A DNA stretch of 23,658 nucleotides, from the IMG/VR virus record IMGVR_UViG_3300011010_000140, positions 3,414 through 27,071 of that record, one strand, 5' to 3'. Below, piece by piece: positions 1,196 to 23,658 of this stretch. The position numbers were made by a program, and so were the translations under genes. Source of the DNA: a virus. Under the pieces are notes generated by a model. It had not been told where the DNA came from. It worked only from the letters and a program-made list of their open reading frames with translations, and did no database searches. Numbering within the stretch: the first letter of the stretch is position 1; each line of letters opens with the position of its first letter.

Positions 1196-3319
1196 ATGGC
1201 TTCTTTTCCAACAGTTGAACAGTTAAACAAAGCAAGAACAGAAGCTAGTCAGTTCTCTGGTGGGCCAACTTATTCGCTCACATTTACTGTAGACGGCAAA
1301 CAGTACAGTTACATACCTAGTAACGTTGCTGAAAACGGCGGCATGACCGCTGGAGAAAATACTTATTTATTACCCTATTTCACTAGCTTAGACAATCTAA
1401 GGGACTTTGGCAGTAAGGCTCAAGAAGTTGATTTATCAACTACGGGTGTAAATAACTATCTTAAAAGCCAAGGCTTGTCAGAAAAGGGATATTTAATCCC
1501 ATTTGGCTCTGCGCCTTTTGATAGCATGGTTAACCCAATACCTACTGAAGTATTTGGTGGTGAGTTAAATGGGTTAAAAGTTATCGATGGGCAAGTTGCC
1601 TATGGGCTTAGTGGTGGTCATGGCAGAAGATATGCCACTACTACAGGCGAGGTACATGACCCATACATTAAACAGAATGATAGTTTTTTAGCCGGCCTTG
1701 GGTCAGTAATTCAAAACATGGGACCGCTGGCAGGGTTTATAGGTAACCTGATTATGCCGGGGCTCGGAACTGGAATATCAGTAGGAAGTGCTATTGCCCA
1801 AGGTGCTAGTCCAGAAGACCTTGCAAAATCATATCTTTCCGCGCAACTTGGTAGTCAGGTTGGCGCAGAGGTTGGGGCTCAAACAGGCTCCACTACTGCA
1901 GGTTCTATAGCTGGAAGTACTACAAGTGGTTTGGCATCAGGGCAGTCATTAGAAGACGCATTGACAAACGCGGCTATTAAAACCGGAATGTCTGAAGCTA
2001 CATCAGGCAAACCTAGCACTGGTGCACTTCCCGGCGGCACACAAGTAGCATCTTCTGATGGTGGGTTACCTAGAGTTGAGATGTCTGGTGCGCCTATTTA
2101 TGCTGAGAGTTCATCAGCAAATACAGTAAGTGCGCCAGTTGGCTATGACTTAATTCCTGCATCAATGTCTGATCAAAGACCTGAAGGTTCTTATTACGAT
2201 GCATACCAGAATGCATGGTTTATGCCTAATGCAGAAGACACACAAGCATTAAAAGACCTGCAAGCACAATTACAAAACCCAACTGACACAACTTCAGTTA
2301 CTCCGCCCTTATCTTCTGGTACTACAGACTTTATACCTCCAGTACTACCTACCACAACTGATACTTCTGGCTCAGGCACAAGCGTAGGAATTGATACAAC
2401 CACAGGCGCGTTACCCACTACTACCACGCCGCCATCTGCAACAGAAATTCCTAGTACAGAAATGCCCCCAGTTGAAGTTGTCGGGTCTAAAGACCCATAT
2501 ACTGGTGAGATTGAGATGGATCTAAGTGGTAGTACCCCTACAACAACGCCAACAACTACTCCAGTTAAGACCACTACCGGTACAGGCCCATCAACACCTA
2601 CATCATTAGGCCAATTCCCTGCAAGTGGTTCAAACGTAGGGCAAATAACATCTTCCGCGTCAACAGCTGGAGCATTACCTACTGCACCATCAGCAACAAT
2701 GCTGGCAGCAGCACCTTTGGAGAAACAAAACATGGTACTAAGTGAACTTACACAACTTTACCCTCAGCTTGCAAACGTTGACCCTCGATTGCTGCAAGTC
2801 TTGTCAGGTAAAGCTAAACCCACTAGCTACTACAACTATGGTTCATCAGGCGGTGGTGCTACGCCTTTAATGAATGCAGGATCTGCAACAATGCCTACTG
2901 CAGGCATGCCTTTTAAAGCATCTACTGCCGGATCTAGTAATCTGGCAGGCTTAACTTCATCAACTGGTGCCGGTGCATTATCAAGAGCAGGCCTTAGCAT
3001 GTTGGACAGTGGCAATAATGTTGCAGGGTACGCCAAAGGTGGACTTGCTGAGCATAAGCCTGAGTTTATTACCGGCGCCACTGGCCACCACGTCAAAGGC
3101 GAAGGCGATGGGCAGTCAGACAGCATTCCGGCCATGCTAGCAGATGGCGAGTATGTGTTTGATGCTGATACAGTTGCTTCACTTGGCAATGGCTCAAATG
3201 ATGCAGGTGCCGCAATCTTGGATAAAATGCGAGAAAACTTACGTAAACACAAACGATCAGCACCAGCGGGAAAGATTCCGCCTAAAGCCAAGTCGCCTCT
3301 TGAATACATGAAAGGTTAA
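1196..3319 (+). CDS. Large virion protein with Gly-zipper and Thr/Pro-rich linker
   Basis: 707 residues. The N-terminal ~170 residues look globular. Residues about 175-285 are Gly/Ala/Ser-rich with small-residue periodicity (GAEVGAQTG, AGSIAGSTTSG), a glycine-zipper-like pattern that could insert into a membrane or pack tightly. Residues about 355-490 form a Thr/Ser/Pro-rich linker. The C-terminal ~90 residues are again ordered, with the stretch DSIPAMLADGEYVFDADTVA followed by a basic tail. I recognise that C-terminal signature as recurrent in virion proteins of environmental podovirus-like phages, without an agreed function. The gene starts seven bases after the previous stop and ends three bases before the next start. 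An ejection or internal virion protein is a reasonable guess, not a demonstrated role. Long antisense reading frames here are composition shadows. Confidence 0.8.
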   Translation: MASFPTVEQLNKARTEASQFSGGPTYSLTFTVDGKQYSYIPSNVAENGGMTAGENTYLLPYFTSLDNLRDFGSKAQEVDLSTTGVNNYLKSQGLSEKGYLIPFGSAPFDSMVNPIPTEVFGGELNGLKVIDGQVAYGLSGGHGRRYATTTGEVHDPYIKQNDSFLAGLGSVIQNMGPLAGFIGNLIMPGLGTGISVGSAIAQGASPEDLAKSYLSAQLGSQVGAEVGAQTGSTTAGSIAGSTTSGLASGQSLEDALTNAAIKTGMSEATSGKPSTGALPGGTQVASSDGGLPRVEMSGAPIYAESSSANTVSAPVGYDLIPASMSDQRPEGSYYDAYQNAWFMPNAEDTQALKDLQAQLQNPTDTTSVTPPLSSGTTDFIPPVLPTTTDTSGSGTSVGIDTTTGALPTTTTPPSATEIPSTEMPPVEVVGSKDPYTGEIEMDLSGSTPTTTPTTTPVKTTTGTGPSTPTSLGQFPASGSNVGQITSSASTAGALPTAPSATMLAAAPLEKQNMVLSELTQLYPQLANVDPRLLQVLSGKAKPTSYYNYGSSGGGATPLMNAGSATMPTAGMPFKASTAGSSNLAGLTSSTGAGALSRAGLSMLDSGNNVAGYAKGGLAEHKPEFITGATGHHVKGEGDGQSDSIPAMLADGEYVFDADTVASLGNGSNDAGAAILDKMRENLRKHKRSAPAGKIPPKAKSPLEYMKG

Positions 3320-3321
3320 TT

Positions 3322-4362
3322 ATGGCAATTACACAAGGCGCAGCCTTACCAAACATTACGACCACGCAAGGTCAAACGACTACCGCGCCTAGTTGGTATA
3401 CTGATTACTTAAGCAATCTGGCAGGTAATGTAACTAGCCAGACTACAGGACCAAATGCTGCTCAGTATGTAGGTGCTCAACCACTACAGCAGCAAGCATT
3501 TACTGCAGCTGGTGCATTGCCTGGGACTTATCAACCTACGCTAAATCAAGCAACAGGGTTGGCGTCTGGTGTAGGTGAAGCCGATGTAGCATCTAATGTT
3601 AACCGCTTCATGAACCCTTATACACAAAACGTGGTTGACGCGCTTGGTGATTTGGGTAAAAGAAATATAAATCAGTTTTTAGCACCTGCGGCAACTTCAG
3701 GCGCTGTTGGCGCTGGGCAGTTTGGTTCAAAGCGTGGTGCTGAAGTACTAGGGCAAGCCATTAATACAGGTTTGCAAAACCTAAACTTAACTCAGTCACA
3801 AGCATTGCAAACCGGCTATAGTCAAGCACTTGCTGCAGCACAGCAAGAACAAGCTAATAAACTTGGCGCGTCATCACAACTAGGTAATTTGGCCACTACA
3901 GGTCAAAACATGGGACTGGCTGACATTAATGCGCTATCTACATTAGGTGGGCAACAACAAACAATTGCACAAAACGAGCAGCTATTCCCATTGCAAACAT
4001 TAAACACTGGTGCATCTGCTTTACGTGGCTATCAAGTTCCTACAGCCGTCAATTCAACGTACACCGGCCCAATCCCTGGTGCTTATTCTGCTTCTCCATT
4101 GCAGCAGATTGCAGGCATTGGTGCATTGCTATCTGCAGCAAGTACTTCATCATCTGGTCAGCCTACGTCATTTGGCAATTGGCTAGGCACTAAATTAATA
4201 TCAGCAGGTAGTGGTATTGGCGATTTGTTTGGGGGCTCATCATCAATGCCTGATAGTAGTGGTACTGATACAACAGGCGGTGGCGGTATTACATACAACG
4301 AAGACGGTAGTTATACTACTTCAACTGGCAACACCATCTACCCTGGTGACTATTCGTACTAA
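3322..4362 (+). CDS. Virion protein, Gln/Ala-rich helical
   Basis: 346 residues. The central part (about 90-230) contains FMNPYTQNVVDALGDLGKRN, then GAGQFGSKRGAEVLGQA and a Gln/Ala/Leu-rich, probably helical region. This combination recurs in virion proteins of marine and freshwater podovirus-like phages. The C-terminus becomes Gly/Ser/Thr-rich with GGGGITYNEDGSYTT, resembling a flexible tail. The start is supported by AAAGG six bases upstream, which lies inside the last codons of the preceding gene. The same AAAGGTTAAT context precedes the next gene, pointing to duplicated or conserved translation signals in the late operon. The role is probably structural (internal or tail-associated protein); no enzymatic motif is seen. 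Confidence 0.75.
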   Translation: MAITQGAALPNITTTQGQTTTAPSWYTDYLSNLAGNVTSQTTGPNAAQYVGAQPLQQQAFTAAGALPGTYQPTLNQATGLASGVGEADVASNVNRFMNPYTQNVVDALGDLGKRNINQFLAPAATSGAVGAGQFGSKRGAEVLGQAINTGLQNLNLTQSQALQTGYSQALAAAQQEQANKLGASSQLGNLATTGQNMGLADINALSTLGGQQQTIAQNEQLFPLQTLNTGASALRGYQVPTAVNSTYTGPIPGAYSASPLQQIAGIGALLSAASTSSSGQPTSFGNWLGTKLISAGSGIGDLFGGSSSMPDSSGTDTTGGGGITYNEDGSYTTSTGNTIYPGDYSY

Positions 4363-21089: not shown

Positions 21090-21136
21090 CCTCAAGGTCA
21101 TAGCAACTGCGTATGCTATTTTAAAGGGAAATGATC

Positions 21137-23230
21137 ATGCCATCAGGCTTCGCCGCACAAACAACACAACCGACAGCATTATATCAAACGTTCTTACAAA
21201 AAAGAAGCTTTACCGACCAAGACGAAAAAGCGCTAGGTCTAGAACTTCTTGACCCCGAGCAAACCTACGCATTGCTTGGCCATACTCGTGAATGGAGCAT
21301 CAAGCTCCCTTACTTTGATGTAATAGGTCAACCAACGGATTTTGCACGAGTTCGTCTGCTCTTACCTAAGGGCAAGATGAAGTACTCACAGGCAAGGTCT
21401 AGTGGCTCTCAAATCTACTTTCCTCCGACCATCAATTGGAAGCAGGTAATGACCGACGTTGATGTACCTATCATCATAACTGAGGGTGAATTCAAGTCAT
21501 GGGCTATCACCAAGCAGATTGTCGCTGATCAGTTGGTGCACGCAACCATTGGCTTGGCCGGTGTTACCAGCTGGACTGATAAGCAAGGCTTACATTTGCA
21601 TAAGGACCTAATGCAGGTTACTTGGCAACGTAAAACGCAGTTTGTACACAAGCATCGCAAGGTCTACATCATCTTCGACTATGATGGGGCCGAGGAAGAC
21701 GGTGAGCCTAATGAACAGGTTGCCATGGCCGAAACGAGATTGGCAGTCACATTACGCGGTCTGGGTGCTGAGGTACACCTTTGTCGAGTTGGCAAGTTCA
21801 GCACAGGCAAAGGCTCCAAGTTTGCTATTGATGATCACCTATTATCAGGCGGCAATCTTGGCCAAGTCCTTACCACCACCTCAACGGTGATGAACGGCGT
21901 CGATACTTTGGAAACCAAGCTATATGAGTTCAAAACTCTCTATGCTTTATACAATGGCGACGTTATCAGGCTGAAAGACGGGCTCATTATGCCGTGGAGC
22001 AAGGCCAAGATCGACTCGGCACAGCATTACTTCATGCAAATCACACAACGGCAGAACGGTCAGACCTCCAGCCGTGAGTTACCCCTTATCGATGAGTATA
22101 AGAAATGGCCGAGATGTTGTAAGCTTGAGCATGTAGGCATGTACCCTGAATACCAAGGTATTCAAATTACACCTACCAAATGCTTTAACCTCTTCAAGCC
22201 TTGGGCTTATGAGCCTGCAATAGGCGATCCCATCCCGTACTTGGAGTTTTGTGATTACTTTTTCCAAGCCGAGCCGCACTTTGCCAACTACTGGCATGAT
22301 TGGGTCGCCAATGTGATCCAGTTCCCATGGCGTAGGAATAACACAACGCCGCAGTTTATACATGATATGGAAGGTATGGGCAAGTCGGCCATTCCGGAAT
22401 TCATTGCCGAAATGCTTGGCATGGGTGAGAATGCACCGGCTGCTACGCTTGGCCCCGACGATCTATTTGGCAACTTCAACGGCGCAATGAGAGGCAAGGT
22501 CTTCGTCGTTGTAAATGAGCCATCATCGGATAGGGATGATCATTCAGCCAAGCTTAAGAACCTAATCACAGGCAAAGAAATCACTATCAACAACAAATAT
22601 GGCGCACAATACTCGATTAAGAACTACGTAAACTATGTATTTACTTCTAACAAGCCTTACATTACGCATATGGGTGCAAGCTCTAGGCGTGAAGCTATTT
22701 ATAAGTGCCCTACCTTCTCACAGCAGGATATTCTTGAAAGAGTACGAGCCATGATGAAGTGGGCCAGATCAAACAAAGGCTCCGGCTTCTCAATGGTACT
22801 TAATTGGTACATGAATCGCGATCTCACTAACTTTGACCCCTACGCACCAGCCCCTATGACTAACTACAAACAAGTTGCAATCTCTCTTTCCAAAACTCCC
22901 CTTGAATCTTTCGCCATGGATCTTGCCAACTGGGTTGACGAGCATTTGGACGGTGTTGGCGCGTTTTCAGCAACGCAGCTCTCCATACTATGTGAGCGTT
23001 GGGGCCACGATTCCAGAGCCAAAGCACAATACATACGCAAAGCGTTGCAACCGCATGGTGAGATAGAACCTAGCAAACTGATCAAGGTACATGGCAAACC
23101 GTCGCGGTTTACGTCCTTCATAACACAACGGGCAGTTAGCAATAGGGTAACACAACACAACTGGTCGCACATTGTTACCAAAACCGAAGAAGCTATAAAA
23201 CGTGAGATCGAGCAAACTGGGAGCTTCTAA
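21137..23230 (+). CDS. Primase-helicase (TOPRIM-like plus SF3-type ATPase)
   Basis: 697 residues. The N-terminal third contains a TOPRIM-like domain: IIITEGEFKSWA (about 113-124) with the conserved Glu, and VYIIFDYDGAEED (about 176-188) with D-x-D, as in DUF3854-type phage primases. The C-terminal half carries a helicase-like ATPase with P-loop HDMEGMGKSA (about 408-417), Walker B-like KVFVVVNEPSS (about 455) and a sensor stretch YVFTSNKPY, the DUF5906/SF3 pattern. The P-loop starts DMEG rather than the usual G-x4 form, but Gly-Lys-Ser is intact. The first ATG (21131) is only two bases from AAAGGG; the ATG at 21137 is better spaced and is used. It stands apart from the other replication genes, on the plus strand, and directly precedes the repeat-rich candidate origin. 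Confidence 0.85.
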   Translation: MPSGFAAQTTQPTALYQTFLQKRSFTDQDEKALGLELLDPEQTYALLGHTREWSIKLPYFDVIGQPTDFARVRLLLPKGKMKYSQARSSGSQIYFPPTINWKQVMTDVDVPIIITEGEFKSWAITKQIVADQLVHATIGLAGVTSWTDKQGLHLHKDLMQVTWQRKTQFVHKHRKVYIIFDYDGAEEDGEPNEQVAMAETRLAVTLRGLGAEVHLCRVGKFSTGKGSKFAIDDHLLSGGNLGQVLTTTSTVMNGVDTLETKLYEFKTLYALYNGDVIRLKDGLIMPWSKAKIDSAQHYFMQITQRQNGQTSSRELPLIDEYKKWPRCCKLEHVGMYPEYQGIQITPTKCFNLFKPWAYEPAIGDPIPYLEFCDYFFQAEPHFANYWHDWVANVIQFPWRRNNTTPQFIHDMEGMGKSAIPEFIAEMLGMGENAPAATLGPDDLFGNFNGAMRGKVFVVVNEPSSDRDDHSAKLKNLITGKEITINNKYGAQYSIKNYVNYVFTSNKPYITHMGASSRREAIYKCPTFSQQDILERVRAMMKWARSNKGSGFSMVLNWYMNRDLTNFDPYAPAPMTNYKQVAISLSKTPLESFAMDLANWVDEHLDGVGAFSATQLSILCERWGHDSRAKAQYIRKALQPHGEIEPSKLIKVHGKPSRFTSFITQRAVSNRVTQHNWSHIVTKTEEAIKREIEQTGSF

Positions 23231-23398
23231 GTGTCTAAATACTGTTACTTGTGTTACTTTATGTTACTCGATAAGTTGTTGATTCTAAACACAAATAACA
23301 CAGTAACAGTAAGTAACAGTATAAAATAAATTATATTAATATATATATATATCGTCGTATTATAGAGTTTTGGCTTACTGTTACTTCAGAGTGTTACC
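23146..23398. repeat. TGTTAC iteron-like cluster around AT-rich core; candidate origin
   Basis: The seven-base motif TGTTACT or TGTTACC, or its complement, occurs at 23146 (complement), 23173, 23243, 23252, 23262, 23302 (complement), 23312 (complement), 23379 and 23392. Neighbouring copies are often 9-10 bases apart, one helical turn. Between the two groups lies an AT-rich stretch (about 23319-23365) with an (AT)n run. The cluster begins in the 3' end of the primase-helicase gene and fills the 224-base gap after it, as expected for an origin bound by an initiator. An operator array for the terminase promoter is the alternative. Confidence 0.55.
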
Positions 23399-23418: not shown

Positions 23419-23447
23419 TTTACATCCAAAAGATAGAAGGGTACAAT
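23419..23447 (+). promoter_or_regulatory. Sigma70-type promoter for terminase small subunit gene
   Basis: TTTACA (23419-23424), exactly 17 bases, then TACAAT (23442-23447): each hexamer matches consensus at five of six positions. The expected start site falls at about 23454-23455, on the A of the ATG, which would give a leaderless or nearly leaderless mRNA. Confidence 0.65.
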
Positions 23448-23454
23448 TCACGGC

Positions 23455-23658
23455 ATGACTACAAAGACACCATCTAAGAACGGAAAGTTCTTGGGCCGTC
23501 CTACTAAGTACGACCCCGCATTTTGCGATCAAATCGTTGAGCTAAGCAAAGACGGGCTATCTCGCTGGCAGATTTGTGCTCGTCTTAACATTGGCTACAA
23601 CAACATGATGACTTGGGAAAAAGCGCACGAAGATTTTCGATGCGCCTTGGCCGAAGCC
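23455..23658 (+). CDS. Terminase small subunit-like protein, N-terminal part
   Basis: 68 residues before the window ends. After a short basic tail (TTKTPSKNGKF) comes GRPTKYDPAFCDQIVELSKD, then a helix-turn-helix-like region (GLSRWQICARLNIGYNNMMTW) and HEDFRCALAEA. The GRPTKYDP opening followed by an HTH and W-x5-H-x-DF-x2-AL is characteristic of phage small terminase subunits that recognise the packaging site and recruit the large subunit. A general phage HTH protein is the alternative while the C-terminus is missing. ATG 23455 has only a distant purine-rich stretch (GAAGGG, about 13 bases away), fitting the promoter position that predicts no leader. The packaging operon presumably continues on the plus strand beyond the window. 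Confidence 0.75.
   Translation, partial: MTTKTPSKNGKFLGRPTKYDPAFCDQIVELSKDGLSRWQICARLNIGYNNMMTWEKAHEDFRCALAEA

Follow-up and report, generated by a model that had tools for sequence, protein, structure and literature searches.

A TGTTAC repeat array at the 3' end of a primase-helicase gene as a probable replication origin of a tailed phage and its relatives

We propose, with a probability of about 85%, that a repeat array at the 3' end of the primase-helicase gene of an uncultivated phage is the replication origin of this phage and is read by the C-terminal winged helix of the primase-helicase. As to the type of origin, a self-loading initiator as in SaPI/PICI or phage P4 would be the best explanation by analogy. 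The window, i.e., the whole stretch of DNA analysed, comprises 23,658 bases and corresponds to bases 3414–27071 of a 43,919-base phage record (IMG/VR record IMGVR_UViG_3300011010_000140); positions refer to the window unless stated otherwise. A replication origin had already been suggested here by a sequence-only reading. This suggestion gains support from a layout conserved in relatives, from a coupling of the repeat motif to the C-terminus of the helicase and not to the terminase small subunit (TerS), and from arrays after distant primase-helicases; the non-random nature of the array, the concerted change of its repeat word and the predicted fold of the C-terminal domain complete the computational evidence.

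The hexamer TGTTAC occurs in nine exact copies within 251 bases (23147–23397). Two of these lie within the last 30 codons of the primase-helicase gene (21131–23230, + strand), one reversed (23147–23152, − strand) and one forward (23173–23178, + strand), so that the array straddles the stop codon at 23230. The other seven are located in the gap of 224 bases between this gene and the start of terS (23455–23658, + strand; PHROG terminase small subunit, E 3.9e-10). A position directly after the primase-helicase gene, as previously claimed, thus holds for the seven copies 3' of the stop codon, but the first two are coding. The in-gene copies are followed by a left group of three forward copies (23243–23248, 23252–23257 and 23262–23267, + strand), an IHF-like site AATCAACAACTTA (23272–23284, − strand) assigned by pattern match to the consensus WATCAANNNNTTR, and a reversed middle group with two exact copies (23303–23308 and 23313–23318, − strand). 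The reversed group is extended by one degenerate copy that can be read from the sequence, TGTTAT (23296–23301, − strand; ATAACA on the top strand), and an exact third reversed copy near this position is frequent in relatives. An AT-rich core with 91% A+T and (AT)n, the proposed melting site, spans 23308–23352, and a right group of two forward copies (23379–23384 and 23392–23397, + strand) closes the array. The groups therefore flank an AT-rich stretch of ~45 bases as had been described. Many of the copies had been noted to be one helical turn apart; the spacing within the groups is 9 and 10 bases on the left, 10 in the reversed and 13 in the right group. Of the reported seven-base motif, a six-base core is common to all nine copies, while the seventh base varies. 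The array also contains two inverted-repeat pairs, each 12/12 complementary. A block like GTATATAGTTTTC/TATAGAGTTTTGG (23353–23372), immediately to the right of the core, recurs in nearly all relatives.

That the repeats exceed chance was borne out by 3,000 dinucleotide shuffles of this 253-base stretch, which yielded at most four copies of TGTTAC and at most six of any hexamer. The array is also the densest hexamer cluster of the 43.9-kb genome, with 8–9 copies compared to 5 in the runner-up and to 7 in the densest cluster of 60 shuffled genomes. A search for a second TGTTAC array elsewhere in the genome revealed scattered single copies only. The cumulative GC skew of the record, which is approximate as a circular skew since the record has no end repeats, shows a broad minimum at ~19–27 kb that includes the array, with no sharp switch at the array itself. 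The lowest point, at 21.9 kb of the record (window ~18529), is ~4.6 kb away from the array, which is adjoined by another low stretch at 26.4–27.2 kb of the record. The skew agrees with an origin at the array but does not point there.

Relatives were found by scans with the primase-helicase and the DUF932 protein, and all loci come from one collection. Among 116 loci containing the primase-helicase C-terminus (about 70 distinct), the array is present between primase-helicase and terS in every relative with enough downstream sequence, down to ~50% identity (L161). In the more distant L163 (41–43% identity) the primase-helicase is directly followed by a DUF932 gene, and both the array and an adjacent terS are absent. 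The layout is nearly constant, with the left group 0–45 bases after the stop codon, the reversed group at ~50–110, an AT-rich stretch, and the right group at ~135–195. A few relatives carry insertions before or after the array, and in some the left group is also reversed in orientation. Of 34 representatives, 18 have a match to the IHF consensus in the gap and on this strand, compared to 0.7 expected from shuffles, and in nearly all of these 18 it sits between the left and the reversed group. In L013, L015 and L017 (gap of ~405 bases) an insertion of ~190 bases with a long inverted repeat around TTGATCACCTTCTATT...AATAGAAAGTGATCA lies between gene and array, and L133, L134 and L135 (520-base gap) possibly have an additional small gene between the array and terS, with the array still adjoining the primase-helicase. 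In L081, terS (369–848 of the locus) contains a stretch of undetermined bases (10 X residues) just past the window end.

The repeat word itself varies across relatives and falls into three classes, TGTTAC, TGTAAC and TGTAAT. Most copies within one phage share one word, including the in-gene copies, and own-class copies occur at the end of the coding sequence in nearly all relatives. A valine codon in the in-gene copy differs synonymously, GTA to GTT, between L056-like phages and L058/L059, in step with the array.

Since the binding surface of the reader protein should change together with the word, motif class was compared with the divergence of each protein window. This comparison also bears on a different explanation of the array, namely a packaging site, in which the repeats are TerS-binding elements of pac or cos. 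Phage P1 pac, with hexamers around the cut, and lambda cosB both combine repeats with IHF sites. Because of this likeness, and with terS as the next gene, only 58 bases past the last repeat, packaging had to be tested as a rival; the IHF-like site of the array fits to it, and array and terS are neighbours in close relatives. All TerS-anchored loci with enough sequence, among the best 80, have a primase upstream; lacking a locus without primase, this search is uninformative within the family.

The coupling test used 34 representatives and 20-residue windows, and related motif class to divergence given the divergence of the helicase core, with relatedness handled solely by regression on core distance. 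The five highest partial correlations were obtained for primase windows within residues 631–690 (0.19–0.24); the next highest primase window reached 0.115, and the windows of TerS at most about 0.07–0.08. In permutations, residues 631–665 gave r 0.23 (p 0.001), compared to r 0.03 (p 0.21) for the HTH of TerS and a partial r of 0.01–0.03 (p > 0.2) for TerS with its HTH included. Residues 631–665 are encoded upstream of the in-gene repeats of the window and their coupling is therefore not a by-product of the coding repeats, while for residues 666–699 a confounding effect of these repeats is possible. Across the primase and TerS alignments the best columns were primase 650 (z 10.3), 636 and, in third place, 652 (z 7.7); by these column scores the codons of residues 650–652 (Leu-Ile-Lys; 23078–23086, + strand) encode some of the strongest statistical specificity positions. 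All ten TGTTAC representatives have Leu at residue 650, where Val is found in most phages of the TGTAAC class and Pro, Ser, Ala or Val in the TGTAAT class. With few exceptions, phages with TGTTAC or TGTAAC carry Lys or Arg at residue 652; in TGTAAT phages this residue is Thr, Ser, Met or Leu. The combination of TGTTAC and Leu650 is scattered over the core tree (L151 beside L133, L142 beside L136, L031 beside L058). The number of motif-class changes needed was 9 on the tree of the C-terminal domain, which is lower than in any of 1,000 shuffles, compared to 11 on the core tree and 13 on the TerS tree. These sequence comparisons, together with the model described below, point to the C-terminal domain of the primase-helicase as the probable reader of the iterons, and no coupling of the motif class to TerS, its HTH included, was seen.

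The primase-helicase (699 aa) consists of DUF3854 (E 3.4e-13), a DUF5906 SF3-type helicase (E 3.1e-18; Walker A GMEGMGKS) and the C-terminal domain; its PHROG match is a DNA primase, and thus a predicted primase and an SF3 helicase are combined in one protein. The helicase part matches the C-terminal region of NrS-1 polymerase (6k9e) by sequence with E 3.7e-10. A full-length model from 10 sequences was poor (pLDDT 50.7), and the model of the domain alone was used. The C-terminal domain (residues 585–699; 22883–23227, + strand), proposed to bind the repeats from its AlphaFold2 model and the co-variation of residues 631–690, is confidently predicted to be a winged helix (48 sequences; pLDDT 91.4, pTM 0.85). 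Its model shows the order helix, strand, helix, helix, two-stranded wing and long C-terminal helix; by numbering, residue 636 falls into the helix before the wing, and 650 and 652 into the first wing strand. Most structural neighbours of the domain (Z ≤ 5.6) are winged helices; RepE, an iteron-binding initiator, is found among the neighbours, as are ORC subunits and the tail of NrS-1 polymerase. As Foldseek alone returned no significant match for the domain, the assignment rests on the topology and on the neighbour list as a whole. The origin-binding domain of P4 is missing from this list, where absence cannot exclude a match. Sequence searches of the domain against the PDB gave E 0.004 to the engineered protein 4rzp; all other matches, which include a few ETS-type winged helices, had E values above 0.3.

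Arrays built of unrelated words were also found after distant primase-helicases. The Pseudomonas phages PG1 (L242:3188–3518), pAN (L244:2948–3273), Presto (L245:3086–3422), Turba (L248), Lodos (L252) and SC_9 (L253) carry ~9–11 words of the CCCAACAC type over 330 bases after the stop codon of a primase-helicase that is roughly 24–29% identical to the present one over part of the protein. Their order, too, includes a reversed group between two forward ones, and the DNA from the reversed to the second forward group is AT-richer. Further arrays are present in Moraxella phage Mcat3 (word CCTGCACA; L256, about 2999–3340) and in Stenotrophomonas phage S1 (word CCGCACA; L249, about 2454–2800). All these distant arrays reached p 0.0033, the minimum possible in the test. 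The S1 array is GC-rich and overlaps the small annotated gene gp2, and its core is thus less like the others. The arrays of the Pseudomonas phages carry no annotation in their records. At ten homologous primase-helicases with roughly 24–43% identity (AXL_3, PW916, MW202621, MW202496, RDJL3, Ab18, KsaM-C1, Vibrio 1.111, KLEP18 and L163) no downstream array was detected, and the arrangement is therefore not universal in the primase-helicase superfamily.

These distant loci argue further against packaging. terS is not the next gene at the arrays of PG1, pAN, Presto, Lodos and Turba; in PG1 it belongs to the P27 family and is located 1.9 kb beyond the array, behind three genes. In addition, a TerS with 42% identity (MW202520) has no repeat array upstream. 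A packaging site is disfavoured and unlikely, since no coupling to TerS was found and the arrays stay with the primase-helicase rather than with terS. With terS adjoining in the close family, the array of the proposed origin may nevertheless serve packaging or late transcription as well.

A function in transcription only, with the repeats serving the terS promoter or the primase gene as sites for a repressor or activator and having no role in initiation, is suggested by a sigma-70-like promoter between the last repeat and terS, outside the proposed origin (TTTACA-17-TACAAT, 23419–23447, + strand; 10/12 matches). Initiators often repress transcription via the same sites. However, an operator would not usually comprise nine sites spread over 250 bases with an AT-rich core among them, the distance of the reversed and forward groups around the core is kept across relatives, the region upstream of the primase gene shows no enrichment of own-class motifs, and some arrays are not directly followed by terS. 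We regard such an operator array as very unlikely. An origin at this site may affect the terS promoter as well.

In phage P4 the iterons form two elements, with crr as the second one beside ori. A site for copy control, incompatibility or partition, bound by the primase-helicase with melting elsewhere, e.g., in the gap between the DUF932 and primase genes, would be in line with this, and two more TGTTAC copies are present in that divergent gap (20861 and 20936). Across relatives, however, own-class motifs in the upstream gap occur at about chance level (15 compared to a mean of 12.5 for the other classes), with no enrichment, and the AT-rich core lies within the present array. Such a function in place of initiation appears highly improbable.

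As in lambda ori, the iterons of the proposed origin adjoin an AT-rich region within the initiator region of the genome. The four iterons of lambda differ in being tandem repeats within a replication gene that all lie to the same side of the AT-rich part, and the initiator O is not itself a helicase. P4 has two separated elements in contrast to the one gene-adjacent array found here. The alpha protein of P4 resembles the present one in that primase, helicase and winged helix, here predicted, are combined in one polypeptide, and its winged helix binds the origin repeats (PMC4234260). A likeness to SaPI/PICI is seen in several features. PICI origins are located 3' of the initiator gene and have an AT-rich region between two iteron sets (PMC6092414), and the C-terminal domain of SaPI Rep reads iterons just 3' of its own gene (PMC7581432). 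Correspondingly, the present array (23147–23397) lies at the 3' end of an initiator-helicase gene with its stop at 23230, as in the relatives, short iteron sets are placed on either side of an AT-rich region, the iterons would be read by a C-terminal domain (proposed here from co-variation and fold), and the iteron words differ between elements (PMC6092414; PMC7581432). Differences are the three iteron groups in a fixed layout plus in-gene copies, an IHF-like site in about half of the relatives, and an N-terminal DUF3854, where SaPIbov1 and SaPI5 are reported with an AEP primase. Moreover, the elements studied here are complete tailed phages and not satellites: terminase and virion-type genes are present in the record itself, which makes the proposed origin PICI-like, yet the phage not a PICI.

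From co-variation and fold, we propose that all three groups of TGTTAC iterons, left, reversed and right, are bound by the winged helix at the C-terminus of the primase-helicase. Where the conserved IHF-like site is present, host IHF may bend the DNA between the left and the reversed group. Following the models of SaPI Rep and Cch2 (PMC7581432), of PICI origins (PMC6092414) and of P4 alpha (PMC4234260), helicase rings may assemble on either side of the AT-rich core, which would then be melted while the helicase loads itself. The primase part of the same protein would provide primers, to be extended by a family-A DNA polymerase (DNA_pol_A), which the phage encodes; the latter steps are suggested by gene content.

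The organisation of PICI origins was stated to be found in no other known bacterial replicon (PMC6092414), and this exclusivity no longer holds if the arrays are origins. Among open-licence papers, we found no description of such an origin in these phages. The wider proposal, with roughly even odds, is that satellite-type (PICI/P4-like) origins occur in a widespread class of complete tailed phages and that the word was rewritten about ten times in the present family, each time together with winged-helix positions 650, 652 and 636. If true, this would constitute a natural specificity code, with mutually orthogonal initiator-origin pairs in an unchanged layout, and the repeated concerted rewriting makes initiator-origin co-evolution directly testable. 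These phages appear to share the PICI-type organisation, which bears on the source of the replication modules of satellites. Origins are unknown for most environmental phages; here a candidate origin, its probable reader and the likely contact residues are legible from the sequence across dozens of uncultivated phages. Analogous arrays in isolates, such as the Pseudomonas phages PG1 and Lodos, make an origin test feasible there.

A last likeness concerns NrS-1 polymerase (gp28) of a Nitratiruptor phage. It shares the homologous helicase domain mentioned above and differs in its N-terminal Prim/Pol, a primase of another type. The fold of its Tail was described as novel, and the domain was not given an origin-binding role (PMC7102993). 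The Tail (residues 616–718; PDB 6lrb, 6k9c) aligns with the C-terminal domain of the present protein over 75 residues with an rmsd of 3.0 and 21% identity. Since the latter is proposed as an origin-binding winged helix, this alignment suggests a role for the NrS-1 Tail, which is possibly origin-binding as well.
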